Shown here: one piece after another, positions 1 to 43,754 of the stretch | Numbering within the stretch: the stretch's first letter is position 1 | How the letters are laid out: each line of letters starts with the position of its first letter | Source of the DNA: a virus | Strand: one strand, 5' to 3' | DNA length: 43,754 nucleotides | Virus record (IMG/VR): IMGVR_UViG_3300037245_001420 | Location: 1 to 43,754 of that record | Notes under the pieces: generated by a model | Told to the model about the DNA's origin: nothing | Databases searched by the model: none | The model's input: only the letters and a program-made list of their open reading frames with translations | Translations under genes and position numbers: made by a program

Positions 1-73
1 GAATGCTACGAACTATCAGATAACTAAGAAAGTGGGACGGATTATTTCCCAAATATTGGGCATAATTGGTTTT
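1..73. repeat. Direct terminal repeat, left copy
   Basis: These 73 bases are identical to positions 43682-43754, which suggests that the sequence is circular or circularly permuted. The same sequence also occurs inside the window (42283-42355, and with changes at 914-986) as part of the array repeat. The overlap could therefore reflect a true circle or an assembly break inside a multi-copy repeat. Confidence 0.9.
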
Positions 74-131
74 GGTTGTGTGTTAGCCTGGTGAGGGTTT
101 TTGCGGGAAGCGGTGAGCAATTATGCCCAAC
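55..131 (+). repeat. Array H hairpin (type 1)
   Basis: The left box ATTGGGC (55-61) and right box GCCCAAC (125-131) flank a stem in which GGGCATAATTG pairs with CAATTATGCCC. The loop contains the motif TTTTTGCGGGAAGCGGTGAG, shared with other H copies. The outermost base does not pair (A opposite C), as if the two flanking cassettes had been brought together independently. Confidence 0.75.
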
Positions 132-173
132 CCTTCACGTGTATGCTTTGTTGGGCGAGAGCGATAGCGGTAA

Positions 174-241
174 GCTCAACGGAGCATCGTTTGAAAGCTC
201 AATGAAGTATGACACGTTAGTTAGAAAACGTTCCGTTGAGA
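174..241 (+). repeat. attC-like hairpin in classical box order
   Basis: GCTCAACGGA at 174-183 pairs with TCCGTTGAG at 232-240, and a smaller inner stem, CGTTT with AAACG, sits inside. The boxes read GCTCAAC (an RYYYAAC match) at the left and GTTGAGA (one mismatch to GTTRRRY) at the right. That is the R''...R' order and roughly 70-base size of integron attC sites. It lies directly upstream of the cassette gene at 282. Confidence 0.5.
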
Positions 242-281
242 TAAGATGAAACTAAATTGAAAAATTAATAAAATATTCATT

Positions 282-569
282 ATGAAAAGAGATGAAATTA
301 AAAGACAAGTAAAATCTTCTATTCCTATTGCAGTTACAAGTAGGACCGGGAAATTAATGTTCCCTTATAGAAATTTAAAAACTCACAAATTAATTATAGA
401 AAATATAGTTGATTTAATTGAAAATATTTTATCAAACGAACGTGAAGGGTTAGGAAAACATGAGTGTGAAAGTAAATTCTGCATGTGTCCTATCCCTAAC
501 TTAAGTATGATAGATACAAATAACGAAGGATATTGTATTAAATGTGATAAGCCTTGGAAAGCAGAATGA
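282..569 (+). CDS. Cassette protein with zinc-ribbon-like cysteines
   Basis: A 95-residue protein of unknown function. The C-terminal third has two paired cysteine motifs (CESKFCMC and CIKC), which suggests a small zinc-binding fold. The N-terminal half is basic and amphipathic, with no membrane segment or signal peptide. The start codon follows an A-rich leader. It lies inside an H-type array unit and is followed by the boundary heptamer TCCTAAT, so it is annotated as array cargo. No family was recognised; an antitoxin-like or regulatory role would be speculation. Confidence 0.7.
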   Translation: MKRDEIKRQVKSSIPIAVTSRTGKLMFPYRNLKTHKLIIENIVDLIENILSNEREGLGKHECESKFCMCPIPNLSMIDTNNEGYCIKCDKPWKAE

Positions 570-603
570 TTTCACACGCCCGTTCGAAACGGCATGTTTT
601 CCT

Positions 604-970
604 AATATTTGGGAAATATGGGACGGAATTTGAGGGATCCGAAATCATCCTTAATTGAAATATAGAATTTAATATTAACTAATATATAACAAAATTATGA
701 AAACAATTATCGCAATTTGCGCAATTATAATAGCAACAGCTATTAATCAAGACTATGTAGTTAGTAAATCGACGCCTATATGTATAGTAGGCGTTGTCGC
801 TTTTCTGTGGGATATGGTAGATTATTATATAAACTCAGATAAATAATTTTATGAACTATTCGCACGTCTCTCAAATTCTGTTCTATGATTTCTTAGTTGG
901 GAATACGTTGCAGGAATGCTACGAAGTTTCAGATAACTAAGAAAGTGGGACGGATTATTTCCCAAATATT
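604..970 (+). repeat. Array X unit around the gene at 697-846
   Basis: The outer arm AATATTTGGGAAAT (604-617) pairs perfectly with ATTTCCCAAATATT (957-970) across the gene. Inside it, GAATTTGAG (626-634) pairs with CTCAAATTC (870-878), and AAATCAT (642-648) pairs with ATGATTT (885-891). The last two helices cross, giving a pseudoknot. TTCTTAGTT and AACTAAGAA form a local hairpin in the right half. Confidence 0.75.
697..846 (+). CDS. Small membrane protein, array cargo
   Basis: A 49-residue hydrophobic protein with two probable membrane segments (about residues 3-16 and 27-40) and a short polar C-terminus ending in NSDK. The start is the ATG in the leader AAAATTATG, a leader sequence also present before the cassette gene at 43474. 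It is enclosed by a complete X stem and is the last cassette before the recombinase. Function unknown. Its size is compatible with a holin-like or toxin-like peptide, but nothing in the sequence decides this. Confidence 0.6.
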   Translation: MKTIIAICAIIIATAINQDYVVSKSTPICIVGVVAFLWDMVDYYINSDK

Positions 971-1045
971 GGGCATAATTGGTTTTGGTTGTGTGTTAGC
1001 CTGTTGAGGGTTTTTGCGTTGAGGCAGCGAGCAATTATGCCCAAC
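968..1045 (+). repeat. Array H hairpin adjoining the recombinase
   Basis: ATTGGGC (968-974) and GCCCAAC (1039-1045) bound a stem of GGGCATAATTG with CAATTATGCCC. Its loop differs from the copy at 55-131 (TTTTTGCGTTGAGGCAGCGAG). It is the terminal site of the array, immediately upstream of the recombinase promoter. Confidence 0.75.
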
Positions 1046-1064
1046 AATTATATATAAATAAGTA

Positions 1065-1095
1065 TTTGGTAATTGTTTAATTTTTATTATCTTAG
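1065..1095 (+). promoter_or_regulatory. Promoter of the recombinase gene
   Basis: TTTG at 1065-1068, a 19-base spacer, then TATCTTAG at 1088-1095, close to the Bacteroidota consensus TTTG-N19/20-TAnnTTTG. Transcription would start almost at the ATG at 1100, giving a leaderless or near-leaderless message. This argues against a start upstream of 1100. Confidence 0.55.
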
Positions 1096-1099
1096 CACT

Positions 1100-1900
1100 A
1101 TGAAAAACGGCAAAATTATAAAGATTTGTGAACAAAAGTTTATATATCTTAATTATTCTTTAAGAACAAAAGAAATATACACACATTATATTAAACAATT
1201 TATTAACACTTTGAATAAACAAATAATACACTGTAATTATAATGATTTTCAAGATTATTTGGACAATTATAATTTTAGTTCGGTATCTCAGCAAAATCAA
1301 GTTATAAATTCAATTAGGTTTTTATATAAATATGGACTTAACAGAAAGTATAAAAAGGTATCTTTCATGCGACCAATAAATGAAAAGCATTTACCTAGAA
1401 TTATTGATAAAGAATTTTTATTGTCTTCTATAGACAATATAAAAAATATAAAACACAAGTGTTTAATTGGCATATCTTATTCTATAGGTTTGCGAGTGTC
1501 TGATGTAATTAACTTAAAAATAGAAGACATAGACTCAAAAAGAATGATTGTTAATATAAGACAATCTAAAGGAAGAAAAGACAGGATACTTCCTTTAAGT
1601 GATAAAATATTAGAATTACTTAAAGAATATTACAAGAAATATAGACCTAAAATATATTTATTTAATGGACAAAACTCATTAAAATACTCTGCTACTAGTT
1701 GTAATAAAATAGTTAAGAAATATACGAGTAACGAATATCATTTTCATTTATTAAGGCACGCCTGCTTTACTCACCTATTAGAATCTGGAACCGATTTAAG
1801 GATTATACAAAAAATGGCAGGACATAAATCAATTAAAACGACCGAAATTTATACACACGTAAGTACTAATTTATTACAAACCGTAAATTTACCAATATGA
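1100..1900 (+). CDS. Tyrosine recombinase (XerC/XerD-like) at the end of the cassette array
   Basis: A 266-residue site-specific recombinase. The N-terminal part (about 1-95) is a SAM-like core-binding domain, and the C-terminal part is the catalytic domain. Visible active-site residues are R132 (GLRVSD), K157 (SKGRK), H216 and R219 (HLLRH), H242 (GHKS) and the nucleophile Y251 (IYTH). Length and motifs match Xer and phage integrases. The extra segment that integron integrases carry between the catalytic boxes is absent, and those enzymes are usually 320-340 residues. The gene follows the terminal H site of the array and overlaps the GIY-YIG gene by ATGA, so the two are translationally coupled. 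It may move cassettes, integrate the phage, or do both. Confidence 0.9.
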   Translation: MKNGKIIKICEQKFIYLNYSLRTKEIYTHYIKQFINTLNKQIIHCNYNDFQDYLDNYNFSSVSQQNQVINSIRFLYKYGLNRKYKKVSFMRPINEKHLPRIIDKEFLLSSIDNIKNIKHKCLIGISYSIGLRVSDVINLKIEDIDSKRMIVNIRQSKGRKDRILPLSDKILELLKEYYKKYRPKIYLFNGQNSLKYSATSCNKIVKKYTSNEYHFHLLRHACFTHLLESGTDLRIIQKMAGHKSIKTTEIYTHVSTNLLQTVNLPI

Positions 1901-2289
1901 AATTCAATATAGACGAATCAATTAAACATGAATCCGGTATTTATATTATTAAAAATACATTAGATTTTAAATGTTACATCGGAAGCACGAAGGATTTTTA
2001 TCAAAGACATAAAGATCACATATCTAAATTAAATAACAAAAGACATACTAATCCTAGATTGCAAAACTTTGTTAATAAATACGGTATCGAAATACTTAGT
2101 TTTAATATTTTGTGCTTTTGTAGTATAAAATTATTGAGATATAATGAAAAGTTACTAATAGATGAATTAAGCCCAACATTTAATATTAAGCCAATTGAAA
2201 TAGATGATTTGGATTTGTACGATAAGAATTATGAAGCAGAAAAAGCAAGAGAAATAGTTAATGAAATATTGGGCGTATTAAAGATTTAA
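1897..2289 (+). CDS. GIY-YIG endonuclease
   Basis: A 130-residue single-domain nuclease. GIY is at residues 14-16, YIG at 27-29 and the catalytic arginine at R37 (FYQRHKDH), followed by the NPRLQNFVNKYG helix typical of the family and a glutamate in NEKLLIDE. It lacks a recognisable DNA-binding extension, so targeting must come from the domain itself or a partner. The start overlaps the recombinase stop (ATGA). Such enzymes act as homing or DNA-repair nucleases. Its coupling to a recombinase beside a hairpin array suggests a role in array DNA cleavage or spread, which is inference. Confidence 0.85.
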   Translation: MKFNIDESIKHESGIYIIKNTLDFKCYIGSTKDFYQRHKDHISKLNNKRHTNPRLQNFVNKYGIEILSFNILCFCSIKLLRYNEKLLIDELSPTFNIKPIEIDDLDLYDKNYEAEKAREIVNEILGVLKI

Positions 2290-39909: not shown

Positions 39910-40063
39910 ATAAACTGATTTAACTAAAATAAAATTGTAACTTGTATAAGTATATTAAATCAGTAAAATAGTGAAGCGGATGAAGTCTAACATTTTGGAG
40001 AATAAGGGAAGGTTTTAAGATACCTTCCCGGAAAAAGTTAATTATTAACGAACAATAAATATT
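39910..40063 (+). other. Non-coding head of the cassette array
   Basis: CTGATTTA and TAAATCAG form a long-loop hairpin (about 39917-39964). GAAGCGGATGAAGTCTAAC then resembles the end of an H hairpin and carries the first boundary heptamer, GTCTAAC (39985-39991). GGGAAGG (40006-40012) pairs with CCTTCCC (40023-40029) locally, an alternative to the long-range pairing of 40011-40024 across the next gene. Confidence 0.5.
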
Positions 40064-40416
40064 ATGAAATTATTTAAAGTGATGACGCAAGGAATGAAGT
40101 CTAATTGTACTGGTGTCGCTTATGGAACTGCTTACGTAGTGGCTAGCGATCCAACTGAAGCTTATAAGAAATTAAGAAGATTCTTAGATAATGAAGATTT
40201 AGGCTTTAGATCAGAAAGAGAGCTAGACACAATCGAAGTGATTGCAGATGAAGAGCAGTATAACGATGTAGGATTTATATTATACACCTAATAATATTTA
40301 TCTTTACTCTGGTATCTTAAAACTTGCCCTTGATTCATAGTTATACACTGTGAGTTTAGGGAAAAACTTCAATTGTTGTACAAGTTTTAAGGTGTGATGG
40401 AATATTCTCGGCTGTT
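39989..40416 (+). repeat. Array X unit around the gene at 40064
   Basis: Outer arms AACA..GAGAATA (39989-40004) and TATTCTC..TGTT (40403-40416) pair with a central mismatch. An inner arm, GTTTTAAGATACC (40012-40024), pairs perfectly with GGTATCTTAAAAC (40311-40323) across the gene. The right half has its own hairpin, AAAACTTG with CAAGTTTT (about 40319-40387). This is the most divergent unit. Confidence 0.55.
40064..40291 (+). CDS. Cassette gene, conserved small phage-type protein
   Basis: 75 residues beginning MKLFKVMTQGMKSNC. The middle GTAYVVASDPTEAYKKLRRFLD is a pattern I associate with small phage proteins. No catalytic motif. It is the first cargo gene of the array and has perfect inverted arms on both sides. 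Confidence 0.65.
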   Translation: MKLFKVMTQGMKSNCTGVAYGTAYVVASDPTEAYKKLRRFLDNEDLGFRSERELDTIEVIADEEQYNDVGFILYT

Positions 40417-40695
40417 ATAGCACAATGGCTTTTGGTTTTTGCGCTTTGGAGCGAGGGGAATTTTAAAATTTATTTCAATTATGGAAAAAGATTTAACAGA
40501 AGCTAACGGAATTGATCTACTTGATGAATTCGAAAAACTTATTCAAGAACAAGCGAGAAAACCTAAAACATTTGATAAAATTAAATACAAAAAGGAGAGA
40601 TTAAATATTGTCTACGAAGAAGTTTTTAGAAGAATGTTTAATTATGTTAACTAATTTTTAAATTAGGGAAGGACAGTGAGTCATTGTGCTATAAT
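40414..40695 (+). repeat. Array H-type unit carrying the gene at 40481
   Basis: TTATAGCACAATG (40415-40427) pairs perfectly with CATTGTGCTATAA (40682-40694) across the gene. Boundary boxes are GTTATAG (40414-40420) and CTATAAT (40689-40695). The left part contains GGTTTTTGCGCTTTGGAGCG, which matches the loop motif of H hairpins, so this is an H hairpin with a gene in its loop. Confidence 0.6.
40481..40654 (+). CDS. Cassette gene, small helical protein
   Basis: 57 residues from the ATG after CAATT; an in-frame start 42 bases earlier would lie inside the H-loop motif and is not used. Acidic and helical (GIDLLDEFEKLIQEQARK). Function unknown. Confidence 0.55.
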   Translation: MEKDLTEANGIDLLDEFEKLIQEQARKPKTFDKIKYKKERLNIVYEEVFRRMFNYVN

Positions 40696-41040
40696 ATTTC
40701 AAGTTATATGTGACGGAAATTTTTAACACTTTTTATATGGGATGTAAAGACAAATCAATATTTAGACAGAACATAACCTTCAATGAAGGTATGAAGATAA
40801 TTAATTCAATACCGAGAGGGAAGGATATTTTCGTGTTTAGAATAAGCCTAACGTCTAGTAGTTGTAGGTACGGCAAAGAAAAGTATATACTTTCAATAGC
40901 GTATAGAAAATGTGGGAATAAAAAGTGTTAGGAATTTATGGCTTATGATAATCTAGTTGTGAGTAGTCATCTTTGGTTAAGAGATGATCTTAATCGAAGT
41001 ATCATAAGCCTGTGCGGAAGGACATATAACTTGAAATATT
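40693..41040 (+). repeat. Array X unit around the gene at 40737
   Basis: AATATTTCAAGTTATATGT (40693-40711) pairs with ACATATAACTTGAAATATT (41022-41040) without mismatch. A second pair of arms, 18 bases each (40717-40734 and 40920-40937), is complementary with two G-U pairs and covers the stretch before the ATG and the stop codon of the gene. GGCTTATGATA and TATCATAAGCC form a local stem in the right half. Confidence 0.75.
40737..40931 (+). CDS. Cassette gene, small basic protein
   Basis: 64 residues from ATG 40737 (MGCKDKSIFRQN). A GTG at 40710 is in frame, but it lies in the repeat arm. Beta-rich with several serines and cysteines (SLTSSSCRYGKEK). Both the ribosome entry region and the stop codon lie in a long complementary stem, so its translation may depend on that stem opening. 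Function unknown. Confidence 0.5.
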   Translation: MGCKDKSIFRQNITFNEGMKIINSIPRGKDIFVFRISLTSSSCRYGKEKYILSIAYRKCGNKKC

Positions 41041-41120
41041 GTGAGTAATGATCCTTGCCTTTTTGAGCGTTTGAAGGGAAGGGTTTTGTGCGGAATGCCG
41101 AGCTGTCAATTAATCACAAC
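41038..41120 (+). repeat. Array H hairpin (type 2)
   Basis: Boxes ATTGTGA (41038-41044) and TCACAAC (41114-41120). The loop has TTTTTGAGCGTTTGAAGGG and TTTTGTGCGGAATGCCGAGC, almost identical to the hairpin at 42823-42904, but the left arm (GTAATGATC) pairs poorly with CAATTAA on the right. This may be a hybrid of two different half-sites. Confidence 0.65.
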
Positions 41121-41438
41121 ACCAAGGAAAATATGGGACGGTTTAATTTAAAACATTAAGATTATGAAAAAACCAAAGGAAATTAGAATTAGTATAATTA
41201 GCTTACAGCTAAAAGAGAATGAAATTTTAATTAAAATAAATGAAACAAATCTTACTTATACAGAAAAGATTAAATATTACACACAGCTTTCAAGTATATC
41301 TATTAAAATTTCAGAATTAGAAAGAGTTTTGAATTGAAATGTACTATGATTTTTTAGTTATGAGTAGAAATATTAGGAATATAAACTTGCAGATACTGAA
41401 GGACGTCTCCTGCGGGACGGCATATTTTCCTTGGTGTT
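41118..41438 (+). repeat. Array X unit around the gene at 41164
   Basis: AACACCAAGGAAAATATG (41118-41135) pairs with CATATTTTCCTTGGTGTT (41421-41438), 18 perfect pairs. TTTAATTTAAAAC before the gene pairs with GTTTTGAATTGAAA at its end with one bulge. The AAATCATAG helix is missing here, although CTATGATTT is present on the right. Confidence 0.75.
41164..41337 (+). CDS. Cassette gene, coiled-coil peptide
   Basis: 57 residues, helical, isoleucine- and leucine-rich heptads (ISIISLQLKENEILI, then SSISIKISELERVL), suggesting self-association. The stop codon lies within the right inner arm. No family recognised. Confidence 0.55.
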   Translation: MKKPKEIRISIISLQLKENEILIKINETNLTYTEKIKYYTQLSSISIKISELERVLN

Positions 41439-41597
41439 ATGCGTAAAAATATTTGGAATGGAAACTAAACTTGAAGATTGTAGATTTTGGACTTGCTATA
41501 ACTGTCCTTTTATAGATATGTGTTACAAATATCAAGAGGGTAGGCGAGGATGGAACGACCGCAGGGAGTTAGCGAAGCGGGAATTTTTACGCCTAAT
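41436..41597 (+). repeat. Array H hairpin holding a gene start
   Basis: Boxes GTTATGC (41436-41442) and GCCTAAT (41591-41597). GCGTAAAAAT (41441-41450) pairs with ATTTTTACGC (41583-41592). Instead of a short loop, the interior carries most of the gene at 41458, showing that H positions can also hold coding DNA. Confidence 0.65.
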
Positions 41598-41649
41598 ATT
41601 TGGGAAATATGGGACGGAATTTGAGGGTGTAAAATCATCAACACTATGA
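41458..41649 (+). CDS. Cassette gene in an H hairpin, cysteine-rich protein
   Basis: 63 residues from METKLEDCRFW. CRFWTCYNCPFIDMC suggests a zinc- or cluster-binding site in the first 22 residues. The later part (RRELAKREFLRLIFGKYG) reads through the H right arm and X left arm, so its C-terminus is made of repeat sequence and may be non-essential. It could have been longer before insertion into the array. Confidence 0.5.
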   Translation: METKLEDCRFWTCYNCPFIDMCYKYQEGRRGWNDRRELAKREFLRLIFGKYGTEFEGVKSSTL

Positions 41650-41681
41650 AAGTAAAGAGTTTATTATTAAATATTTTTTAA
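41646..41681 (+). CDS. Possible leader peptide
   Basis: An 11-codon frame (MKVKSLLLNIF) whose stop codon touches a strong Shine-Dalgarno sequence, AGGAGG at 41681-41686. Such an arrangement could couple its translation to the next gene. Expression is unproven. Confidence 0.25.
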   Translation: MKVKSLLLNIF

Positions 41682-41693
41682 GGAGGGAATTTT

Positions 41694-41870
41694 ATGAAAT
41701 TTAAAAAAGGAGACCAGGCAATAATAACTGATGATAGTAATTTACGTCATCTTAGAATAATGGATAAAGTTACAATCAAGATAGTTGATCCTTTATCTAC
41801 AATCTTAACATATTACGTAGAAGATATTAATGGTATAGGACAATGGGTATCTGAAAATCAGATAGCATAA
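41694..41870 (+). CDS. Cassette gene, small SH3-like protein
   Basis: 58 residues. FKKGDQAIITDD at the start and YYVEDINGIGQWVSENQI at the end are typical of small SH3-like barrels found in phage and mobile-element proteins. It is preceded by AGGAGG seven bases before the ATG, a signal that is rare in Bacteroidota and in the rest of this window, so the gene may come from another kind of host. Function unknown. Confidence 0.6.
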   Translation: MKFKKGDQAIITDDSNLRHLRIMDKVTIKIVDPLSTILTYYVEDINGIGQWVSENQIA

Positions 41871-41883
41871 AAATTTAGAAACT

Positions 41884-42159
41884 ATGAAAAAAAAGTACGA
41901 CATGAAACCAATAGTTGATTTAATGGATAACTCTATTAATAAACTGAAAAAATTAGTACCAAAAGAACATCAATTAATTTGCAGCGATTGTGGACAAATC
42001 ATAGACATGAGAGATTTAAGCCAAGTTTTCGCACATGAGCCTTGTGATGGCATTCAGAAAAATTACAATGATGTTGAACAAATACCATACTCATCTAGTC
42101 AGAAAATAGGAGAACCTATAATTTGGACAAAAGACAAGAGAGCTATACACTTAAATTAA
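41884..42159 (+). CDS. Cassette gene with zinc-ribbon-like motif
   Basis: 91 residues. LICSDCGQIIDMRDLSQVFAHEPC gives CxxC plus a later histidine and cysteine, a plausible zinc site (residues 48-69). The N-terminus is helical and basic. It is second in a two-gene cassette, 13 bases after the SH3-like gene. No function assigned. Confidence 0.6.
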   Translation: MKKKYDMKPIVDLMDNSINKLKKLVPKEHQLICSDCGQIIDMRDLSQVFAHEPCDGIQKNYNDVEQIPYSSSQKIGEPIIWTKDKRAIHLN

Positions 42160-42505
42160 ACAGTTTAGAATAAACTGAAAAAGCGTAGGCAAAAAAATAT
42201 TTAATATTAAGATAAACCAATACTATGAAAAAAGACTCTCAAATTCTGTTCTATGATTTCTTAGTTGTGCATATGTTGCAGGAATGCTACGAACTATCAG
42301 ATAACTAAGAAAGTGGGACGGATTATTTCCCAAATATTGGGCATAATTGGTTTTGGTTGTGTGTTAGCCTGGTGAGGGTTTTTGCGGGAAGCGGTGAGCA
42401 ATTATGCCTAATGTTTCAGTAAATATGGGACGGGTTTTTAAGGGTAGAATCATAGTGATGATTATATATAATAAATTAAATGTTTAATTAAAAAGTAATA
42501 AAATT
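42160..42505 (+). other. Non-coding array junction
   Basis: 346 bases without a credible gene. A short frame beginning MKKDSQILFYDF at 42224 runs into the repeat and is probably an extended form of the repeat frame noted elsewhere. The rest consists of the right half of the X unit that ends at 42338, the H hairpin at 42336-42412 and the left half of the next unit. Confidence 0.6.
42336..42412 (+). repeat. Array H hairpin (type 1)
   Basis: Boxes ATTGGGC (42336-42342) and GCCTAAT (42406-42412). The loop is identical to the copy at 55-131. Only the last bases of the right box differ (TAAT here, CAAC there), matching the cassette that follows. Confidence 0.75.
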
Positions 42506-42825
42506 ATGACAGTTAAAGAATTGAAAGAGAAACTGAATAAATTTCCAGACAATACAGATGTATTTGTAGATGAAAGATACACTGAATTTACTTATGGAAT
42601 CGTAAACTCAGTACACATGATGGAAATTGATTTAGTTGAAGAACCAGGAGGTGATTCACTTGCTCAGCAAGATGTAGTTATAATTAGTGAAGAATAATTT
42701 TATGGGTTCAAGGCTTCTGCCCTTAAAAACATGTCCTATGATTTATTAGTTGTGAGTCGTTGACAGTTATGGCAGGAACTGTCAGACACGTACAGAGGTG
42801 CGGAAGCCTTATTTACTGAAACATT
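42410..42825 (+). repeat. Array X unit around the gene at 42506
   Basis: AATGTTTCAGTAAATA (42410-42425) pairs with TATTTACTGAAACATT (42810-42825). GTTTTTAAGGG (42434-42444) pairs with CCCTTAAAAAC (42720-42730), and AATCATAG (42448-42455) with CTATGATT (42736-42743). GACAGTT and AACTGTC form a local hairpin in the right half. Confidence 0.8.
42506..42697 (+). CDS. Cassette gene, small conserved phage-type protein
   Basis: 63 residues beginning MTVKELKEKLNKFPDNTDVFV, a start shared by many small phage proteins of unknown role. The middle is beta-rich and the end acidic. The ATG follows AATAAAATT. Enclosed by fully matched arms. Confidence 0.65.
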   Translation: MTVKELKEKLNKFPDNTDVFVDERYTEFTYGIVNSVHMMEIDLVEEPGGDSLAQQDVVIISEE

Positions 42826-42904
42826 GTGATTAATTGTGTTGCCTTTTTGAGCGTTTGAAGGGAAGGGTTTTGTGCGGAATGCCGAGCTGTCAATTAATCA
42901 CAAC
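42823..42904 (+). repeat. Array H hairpin (type 2)
   Basis: Boxes ATTGTGA (42823-42829) and TCACAAC (42898-42904); TGTGATTAATTG pairs with CAATTAATCACA. The loop matches that of 41038-41120 closely. Confidence 0.75.
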
Positions 42905-43300
42905 GCTTCAGGAAATATGGGATGGCTTTTTAAGGGCAAATCATAGCCCTATCTATTATATATAAATTTAATATTAATCACTAAAGAAAGAAAATTATGA
43001 AAACTAAATTTGTTGAAGAAAAGACAAAAAAGAGTTTAGCTGTCAAGGACGGCATAATTCCTGTTGTAAAATGGGATAAAGTTACTATTAACGAGATAAA
43101 TTATAGTGTAATATCATGGCGTTTCGATATTGATATGGAATTATATTATGTTTATTTAGAAGTCTAATAATTTTATGGAGATCATTGGGAAGGCCCTTGA
43201 AAAGCTTTCCTATGATTTACTTGTTAGGTTTAGTTGACTTAGGTAGGTAGTCCGTTTCGGATAGCTGAGATTGTGCGTAAGCCTTATTTTCTGAAGCGTT
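42902..43300 (+). repeat. Array X unit around the gene at 42997
   Basis: AACGCTTCAGGAAATA (42902-42917) pairs with TATTTTCTGAAGCGTT (43285-43300) with one G-T pair. GCTTTTTAAGGGC (42925-42937) pairs with GCCCTTGAAAAGC (43193-43205) with one G-T pair. AAATCATAG (42938-42946) pairs with CTATGATTT (43210-43218). Confidence 0.8.
42997..43167 (+). CDS. Cassette gene, small unknown protein
   Basis: 56 residues, basic N-terminus (MKTKFVEEKTKKS) and a beta-rich end (INYSVISWRFDIDMELYYVY). No motif. The ATG follows a purine-rich leader (AAAGAAAGAAAATTATG). The flanks on both sides, about 300 bases, hold only array repeats. Confidence 0.55.
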   Translation: MKTKFVEEKTKKSLAVKDGIIPVVKWDKVTINEINYSVISWRFDIDMELYYVYLEV

Positions 43301-43382
43301 AAGGTTCAATTGAACTGGTTTTTGTGGGCTGTTGTAGGGTGGATATTTTGTGTGGAAGCCGTGCGGTCAATTGAACCTTAAT
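43298..43382 (+). repeat. Array H hairpin (type 3)
   Basis: Boxes GTTAAGG (43298-43304) and CCTTAAT (43376-43382). AAGGTTCAATTGA pairs with TCAATTGAACCTT. The loop is related to but distinct from types 1 and 2 (TTTTGTGTGGAAGCCGTGCGG). Confidence 0.75.
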
Positions 43383-43738
43383 ATTTGGGAAATATGGGAC
43401 GGAATTTGAGGGTACTCAAAATCATAGTCTCACAAAGAAATGAATTTAATATTAACTAATATATAATAAAATTATGACACTTGAAATTAGAGAGTATGAA
43501 TATGATGATTCAGATGCAATGAAAAGATTTGTATCTTGCTTGCGTAAAGATAACTTAATAAATATACACTATTGTTCCAATATAGATAAATATTTTGTGT
43601 ATTACTGGGTATAATTTTATGAACTATACACACGACTCTCAAATTCTGTTCTATGATTTCTTAGTTGTGCATATGTTGCAGGAATGCTACGAACTATCAG
43701 ATAACTAAGAAAGTGGGACGGATTATTTCCCAAATATT
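43380..43738 (+). repeat. Array X unit around the gene at 43474
   Basis: AATATTTGGGAAAT (43380-43393) pairs with ATTTCCCAAATATT (43725-43738). GAATTTGAG (43402-43410) pairs with CTCAAATTC (43638-43646). AAATCATAG (43419-43427) pairs with CTATGATTT (43651-43659). Its repeat sequences are almost identical to those of the unit at 604-970. Confidence 0.8.
43474..43614 (+). CDS. Cassette gene, very small protein
   Basis: 46 residues, acidic start (MTLEIREYEYDDSDAM), two cysteines, an aromatic end (KYFVYYWV). The leader AACTAATATATAATAAAATT before its ATG is nearly the same as that of the gene at 697, so the two cassettes share a recent origin for their flanks, though the genes differ. Function unknown. 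Confidence 0.5.
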   Translation: MTLEIREYEYDDSDAMKRFVSCLRKDNLINIHYCSNIDKYFVYYWV

Positions 43739-43754
43739 GGGCATAATTGGTTTT
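43682..43754. repeat. Direct terminal repeat, right copy
   Basis: Identical to positions 1-73. It covers the right arm of an ORF-spanning stem and the beginning of an inter-gene hairpin that continues at position 74. Array features in this region should be read across the junction. Confidence 0.9.

Follow-up and report, generated by a model that had tools for sequence, protein, structure and literature searches.

A probable integron-like gene-cassette array adjoining a XerA-like tyrosine recombinase in a phage genome

Can a phage carry a gene-cassette array of its own, together with the recombinase that exchanges the cassettes? The question is raised by the IMG/VR virus record IMGVR_UViG_3300037245_001420, whose full 43,754 bases (hereafter the window; GC content 30.6%) include genes for terminase, portal, and tape measure proteins and probably belong to a phage of Bacteroidota. 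In this window, the final site of an array of hairpins and small open reading frames (ORFs) adjoins the gene of a 266-amino-acid tyrosine recombinase. The region is very probably a platform of gene cassettes that is carried by the phage and functions like an integron, with the XerA-like enzyme most likely catalyzing the exchange. An integron-like reading had been proposed in a first-pass annotation of the sequence and was upheld, where the strongest evidence came from relatives, namely cassette turnover at an AAC box and the co-occurrence of a same-family recombinase and site at 61 loci.

Two types of hairpin were distinguished in the array: type A starts with AAY and ends with RTT, and type B starts with RTT and ends with AAY. 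Seventeen consecutive hairpins tile the stretch from 40414 across the contig junction to 1045, and neighboring hairpins have the AA/TT of their boxes in common. The 4.9-kilobase (kb) array contained 28 maximal inverted repeats of at least 13 nucleotides, compared with a mean of 1.4 (maximum 5) over 20 dinucleotide shuffles, while three other 5-kb stretches of the window contained one to four, compared with 2.3-2.6 under shuffling. Watson-Crick pairs in the hairpin arms amounted to 198 of 238, compared with 128±10 (maximum 167, n=5000) when right arms were permuted among the hairpins. Three tiles scored low, two owing to hand-set ends that were one base out of register, and the third (41039-41120) being a spacer with imperfectly paired halves, possibly a product of spacer-spacer recombination. 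Since pairing is reduced on permutation, the cassette-specific arms point to compensatory change and therefore to selection on folding. Such arms fit folding of the site, the strand not being readable from sequence.

The first-pass annotation had described ten small genes separated by related palindromes and bounded by heptamers close to RTTRRRY and RYYYAAY, in an array ending at 43754. The H and X repeat units underlying this description were reproduced in the array, the latter with copies at 42211-42418, at 843-1050, and across the junction (43611-43754 plus 74-137), and the excess of inverted repeats agrees with it as well. However, the array includes 12-13 ORFs, most of the window genes lie within AAY...RTT hairpins instead of between palindromes, and ORF 282-569 crosses a box. 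Only AAY and RTT are strict in the window, where several boxes are AAT and the full heptamers are loose, and the actual end of the array is at 1045. The tiling is less regular in the stretch 39985-40414. The array was also said to reach the recombinase through a circular junction. Positions 1-73 are identical to 43682-43754, but the same 73 base pairs (bp) are also present at 42282-42354; because the overlap sits in a repeat, circularity is not provable from it alone, and closure of the contig through this repeat could be an assembly artefact. A closure joining the array across the contig ends is likely, and regardless of the junction, the contiguous stretch 1-1100 alone holds roughly two cassettes together with the last site and the recombinase.

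The recombinase has the catalytic residues R132, K157, H216, R219, H242, and Y251, all six of which were invariant across 22 relatives. With its two domains, the RKHRHY residues, and a Xer-type fold, it belongs to the XerA/XerC-like family. Its best profile was NF040815, "site-specific tyrosine recombinase/integron integrase" (156 bits, cut-off 220), and it reached 140 bits against the integron integrase model TIGR02249 (cut-off 265), for which true IntI proteins scored 394 and 509. An alignment with IntI1 and the IntI of a Shewanella phage revealed that the IntI-specific stretch is missing; the additional domain of IntI is characteristic and held necessary for activity and cassette recombination (PMC9668308; PMC8138268). 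The structural search with Foldseek returned XerA (5hxy) as the top match and IntI4 as the next, from a model with a pLDDT of 80.5 and a pTM of 0.56 in which the domain arrangement is uncertain. In the phylogeny, the window enzyme grouped with other viral recombinases and with the enzymes of the Freya and Ingeline phages (support 98/96), and it was placed outside the IntI branch with moderate support, the deep branches being weak. A XerA-like enzyme that lacks the IntI-specific domain means that the locus is not an integron in the proper sense. Close relatives of the enzyme were rare in chromosomes, occurring in 3 of 300 Flavobacteriaceae genomes at E<=1e-60.

A scan of IMG/VR identified 78 relatives, and repeats and palindromes were plentiful upstream of their recombinases, far more than downstream. 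Site, array, and recombinase were found together in dozens of viral contigs, some of them 265-465 kb long and with a terminase. The box nearest to the recombinase was AAC at 61 viral or near-viral loci and was followed there by TATTATATATAA, while the preceding sequence was variable apart from a conserved A and T nine and eight bases before the box. This element is a putative attI. The cassette end at attI matched its upstream partner at 12.0 of 14 positions, compared with 9.6 for control AAC words (p=6e-22), and 86 cassettes were obtained by following the arrays of relatives outward. The 11th base was mismatched in 81 of the 86, with a G on the left arm opposite a T on the right in 78. Sites with this G/T mark numbered 114 upstream of 30 viral recombinases and one downstream (180 kb each). 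Such a mark makes the palindrome asymmetric and might signal strand and direction to the enzyme. The boxes of relatives reduce to YAAC / GTTR, the full RYYYAAC / GTTRRRY heptamer being found only loosely. The clearest case was the viral contig L042, where near-identical short A hairpins of the form AAC GTCCGATGATAAACAA TCGTTTTAATG TTGTTTATCATTT GTT alternate with genes that have complementary ends, such as TTAGCACCAGTAC...GTATTGGTGCTAA. The loop TCGTTTTAATG was found repeatedly in short hairpins of both polarities, in contigs L042, L022, L037, and L097.

Natural turnover was observed in cultured relatives. The Polaribacter phages Freya_1 to Freya_10 (MT732463-MT732472; Bartlau et al., 2021) are ten cultured isolates of one species with lengths of 43,978 to 48,920, and the isolates compared differ by cassette content; the paper that describes them makes no mention of integrons or cassettes (PMC8776804). 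Between Freya_1 and Freya_10 there were no mismatches over 43,929 bp, the difference being one array block with the borders ...TTTACAAC|GGATATGG and ...TTGCTAAC|ACCCC. Blocks of Freya_10 were missing from isolates 1, 5, 8, and 9, while Freya_6 and Freya_7 had another 472-base stretch at attI that was found in no other phage record. Three of the four deletions and the insertion reached attI. In Freya_10, each of the five distinct borders has YAAC at its end, and the Freya borders have G/T ends as in other relatives. Similarly, a DNA-methylase cassette with AAC^ on both sides (^ marking the border) was found in Danklef_5 and not in Danklef_4. In total, seven of seven Freya and Danklef borders were at AAC^, where the frequency of AAC is 2.9%. 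Freya_10 and Danklef_5 also have in common a 1,169-base block, 99.6% alike, which starts and ends at sites and has different neighbors in the two phages. In the metagenomic contigs L016, L042, and L043, near-identical cassette blocks occurred in different order, again with borders at AAC^. Comparison of relatives, which the first-pass annotation had put forward as one way to check its reading, thus revealed gain, loss, and reordering of cassettes with consistent breakpoints at the box, in otherwise identical Freya genomes as well as in Danklef and the metagenomic contigs.

Palindromes between phage genes are common, and those of the window might be terminators or structured intergenic RNAs, with the recombinase an ordinary lysogeny integrase and the variation a result of chance deletion. 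Bartlau et al. (2021; PMC8776804) interpreted the integrases of the Polaribacter phages as indicating a temperate lifestyle. However, the borders at AAC^ argue against chance deletion, the palindromes pair across whole genes with cassette-specific sequence, the array of sites is bound to one side of the recombinase, and the system is also present in the very long terminase-containing contigs. A search of Rfam returned nothing at gathering score and one chance match (E=0.99). An explanation by lysogeny and terminators is therefore very unlikely. General homologous recombination between repeated sites, with the recombinase as a bystander, would agree with the similarity of array sites, as among the copies in L042, and with the recombination genes that these phages carry. 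Yet in Freya the two recombining sites are hardly alike on the left apart from AAC and have nothing in common on the right, and the fixed distance of the G/T mark from AAC would be left unexplained, which makes this possibility very unlikely.

A third possibility is that an integron integrase or Xer protein of the host, and not the neighboring enzyme, moves the sites in trans. IntI1 is able to use attC-like sites of the Polaribacter phage P12002L (Qi et al., 2023; PMC9892861), and both the Danklef phages, with a truncated recombinase, and the virus contig L097, which has no recombinase, would need such help. In contrast, a single recombinase clade (98/96 support) with a conserved attI adjoins the array at 61 loci, and movement in trans is very unlikely.

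Several observations weigh against the reading of the region as a cassette platform. The recombinases of Freya and the window are only 35% identical. In Danklef (L240-L242), the recombinase frame is truncated, and still the methylase cassette varies among isolates; given the truncation, this event is older or another enzyme acted. No readable array was found in a near relative of the window phage, the contig of the nearest one (L009, 76%) stopping 168 bp before the recombinase and having no array at its other end, and no turnover was seen in the window phage or a near relative. The B arms of the window have A-T where relatives have G/T, and the signature scan found no G/T site in the window. 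The window ORFs are mostly in the A loop, with some in B and one across both. Additionally, cassette DNA of the window was found in no other record except for a distant frame in L097.

That contig bears on how the window relates to the rest of the family. An exact search with the frame GGAAATATGGGACGG matched 45 contigs, about the level of chance, among which L097 was a real relative; a search with a longer X pattern gave no match. L097 is a 39-kb virus contig in which A frames that contain GGGAAATATGGGACGG and enclose a gene in their loop stand beside B cassettes with the G/T mark. Since both kinds of cassette occur side by side, the window type is a class within the same system and not a separate one. 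GGGACGG and GTGCGGAAG are conserved beside a variable hairpin inside A frames (window 42434-42830 and similar; L097 41-440), an element that looks like a structured nucleic acid and had no match in Rfam. The short window spacers were also considered as classical attC sites, an assignment that was dropped as their polarity is opposite.

Breakpoints could also be read in the window itself, from its three X cassettes. Their common sequence runs from TAAT^ (601, 41592, 43379) to YAAY^ (about 131, 1045, 42412), outside of which the neighbors are unrelated. All three have the A arms and the B spacer frame in common, while their ORFs are unrelated, which suggests gene exchange inside a frame. Such exchange is not accounted for by site-specific cutting at AAC alone. 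Two of these three similar frames (601-1045; 41592-42412; 43379-43754 plus 1-131) have in common an AT-rich leader ending in AAAATTATGA and the trailer TAATTTTATG.

In the proposed mechanism, a cassette would consist of a pair of A and B hairpins with a small ORF in one loop. Whole cassettes would be cut out and inserted at ...YAA^C, most often at attI before the recombinase. In an excised circle, the B arms could pair across A, so that the A and B arms would form one long attC-like hairpin with an unpaired stretch between the stem parts; in the array, only separate A and B hairpins could form, and the free circle would thus be the better folded site. The adjacent XerA-like recombinase would most likely catalyze the exchange, acting on folded single strands as IntI does. 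Computed folding energies are consistent with this scheme. For sites of L042, the circle form had -15 to -25 kcal/mol compared with -8 to -14 for the array form (a gain of 4-12), and for window cassettes with the ORF removed, the values were -43 to -47 and -30 to -38 kcal/mol (a gain of 9-13). The better folding of the circle is predicted to favor insertion of free circles.

Table 1. Features of the array and the adjoining genes in the window.
Feature	Position	Strand	Remarks
Tyrosine recombinase, 266 aa, SAM_4 N-domain and Phage_integrase	1100..1900	+	R132-K157-H216-R219-H242-Y251; without IntI-specific insert
Putative attI GCAATTATGCCCAAC^AATTATATATAAATAAG, box AAC at 1043-1045	1030..1065	+	About 55 nt before recombinase start; AAC + TATTATATATAA element at 61 loci
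B hairpin (RTT...AAY), spacer without gene, attI-proximal cassette	968..1045	+	13/14 pairs
A hairpin (AAY...RTT), X-type frame, ORF 697-846 (49 aa) in loop	604..970	+	14/14 pairs
B hairpin, contains 3' part of ORF 282-569	449..606	+	13/14 pairs
A hairpin AACCCTTCACG...CGTGAAGGGTT, contains 5' part of ORF 282-569 (95 aa)	129..452	+	Sequence; pair count shifted by one base
B hairpin (X spacer) at junction	55..131	+	13/14 pairs
A hairpin, ORF 43474-43614 (46 aa)	43380..43754 (or 43380 to 57 over junction)	+	14/14 pairs
B hairpin spacer	43298..43382	+	13/14 pairs
A hairpin, ORF 42997-43167 (56 aa)	42902..43300	+	13/14 pairs and one G.T
B hairpin spacer	42823..42904	+	13/14 pairs
A hairpin, ORF 42506-42697 (63 aa); inner helix GTTTTTAAGGG / CCCTTAAAAAC; GGGACGG, GTGCGGAAG conserved	42410..42825	+	14/14 pairs
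B hairpin (X spacer)	42336..42412	+	Inverted-repeat scan
A hairpin, X-type frame, ORFs 41694-41870 (58 aa) and 41884-42159 (91 aa)	41593..42340	+	13/14 pairs
B hairpin, contains most of ORF 41431-41649 (72 aa)	41436..41597	+	12/14 pairs
A hairpin, ORF 41164-41337 (57 aa)	41118..41438	+	14/14 pairs
B spacer, pairing imperfect	41039..41120	+	Sequence
A hairpin, ORF 40737-40931 (64 aa from ATG)	40693..41040	+	14/14 pairs
B hairpin, ORF 40481-40654 (57 aa from ATG)	40414..40695	+	13/14 pairs
Inverted pair AAGGGAAGGTTTTAAGATACC / GGTATCTTAAAACTTGCCCTT around ORF 40064-40291 (75 aa)	40004..40331	+	Probably the first cassette; less distinct borders
GIY-YIG endonuclease-like ORF directly behind recombinase	1897..2289	+	PF01541, 2.7e-9
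aa, amino acids; nt, nucleotides.

The GIY-YIG-like ORF (Table 1) overlaps the end of the recombinase gene, and an HNH endonuclease gene is in the same place in Freya.

Unexpectedly, the family also extends to chromosomes of Bacteroidota, where relatives with about 40-45% identity adjoin arrays as well. For example, Flavobacterium saccharophilum (L153) has nine sites and an Aequorivita (L181) has seven; the A hairpins of these loci are about 118 bases long and alike. Near the loci examined, 88 of 94 G/T sites were on the strand opposite to the recombinase, on its 3' side, and 19 loci had at least two G/T sites. The chromosomal enzymes are short and score under the IntI cut-off. The arrays at L153, L181, L189, L196, L137, L164, L210, and other loci, in which the G/T-marked sites are about 120 bp apart and convergent with the recombinase, look like unrecognised chromosomal integron-like arrays. 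An earlier view that chromosomal relatives have no arrays was rejected, as a general palindrome count had misled and a strand- and signature-aware scan finds the arrays on the 3' side. A family member with 51% identity and G/T sites was also found in L133, a contig (PAJP01000008.1) of a Methylophaga metagenome-assembled genome labelled Gammaproteobacteria, where the host label or the binning may be wrong.

All 79 of the relatives' cassettes analyzed for coding content contained an ORF of at least 40 amino acids, the longest ORF being directed to the recombinase in 76, and the window genes are oriented likewise. At least 74 of 82 cassette proteins were without a match in Pfam. Across Pfam, PADLOC, and PHROGs, the assigned proteins were two DNA methylases, an exoribonuclease, and an HNH-like protein, and the match of the window ORF 41884-42159 to AcrIC5 (E=0.02) was below the cut-off. 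Such mostly unmatched content is what integron cassettes and phage accessory genes usually show.

The system resembles integrons (IntI/attI/attC) in its tandem cassettes, each with a folded palindromic site and the core ...YAAC / GTTR, in a primary insertion site by the recombinase, in the excision of whole cassettes, and in complementary ends that fold better in the circle. Of the components of a strict integron, an attI beside the integrase gene was found as the AAC and AT-rich element at 61 loci and in the Freya events, imperfect palindromic attC sites are represented by the hairpin folds and only loosely by the heptamer, and site-specific excision and insertion at the core were seen in relatives and not in the window lineage. 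In contrast, the window enzyme, which scores below the model cut-off, is not an IntI-type integrase with the additional domain. The ORFs read toward the recombinase and are therefore not driven by a promoter situated beside it, unlike in classical integrons. The complementary ends of attC in integrons are 6-7 nucleotides long, whereas those of the present system are about 14, with a G opposite a T in relatives. The site also precedes the gene on its 5' side, and the window genes are mostly enclosed by the site hairpin. "Reverse" integrons have another relative orientation of recombinase and cassettes; they resemble the present system in the unusual orientation of cassette genes and differ from it in having a true IntI.

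The first-pass annotation held that phages normally have no cassette arrays with their own recombinase. Integron parts were already known from phages (Qi et al., 2023; PMC9892861), either as IntI integrons or as clusters of attC sites without an integrase, including Polaribacter phage P12002L; these phages have attC-like sites and cassettes in common with the present system, and the passages covered describe no cassette system with its own XerA-like enzyme. The present system is new in its enzyme family, in the architecture of its sites, and in how widely it is spread. The "simple" XerA/XerC-like tyrosine recombinases (NF040815; Smyshlyaev et al., 2021; PMC8138268) agree with the window enzyme in size, domains, and best profile and structure matches, but the roles described for them are chromosome dimer resolution or element mobility, not cassette arrays. 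Complete integrons are very rare in Bacteroidota according to IntegronFinder 2.0 (PMC9024848), where one is named for Bacteroidetes proper, in Salinibacter ruber. No account of a XerA-like enzyme with an attI, cassette arrays, and turnover was found in the open literature, a coverage outside of which most subscription journals and preprints fall.

These results make it fairly likely that a separate gene-capture lineage, based on a recombinase that is XerA-like and has no IntI domain, exists across Bacteroidota, both as chromosomal arrays with a site spacing of about 120 bp and as small-gene arrays in phages, including very large ones. If so, cassettes could be exchanged at folded sites in the absence of the IntI-specific domain, and phages may carry cassettes between hosts. 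A Xer-type enzyme that has an attI and cassettes of its own and shows turnover would represent an independent or an ancestral solution, which bears on the origin of IntI from Xer. The Freya isolates make the system testable now in a cultured phage-host pair. Additionally, the cassettes are a catalogue of small uncharacterised phage genes that are swapped in and out, and a natural place to search for counter-defence genes.

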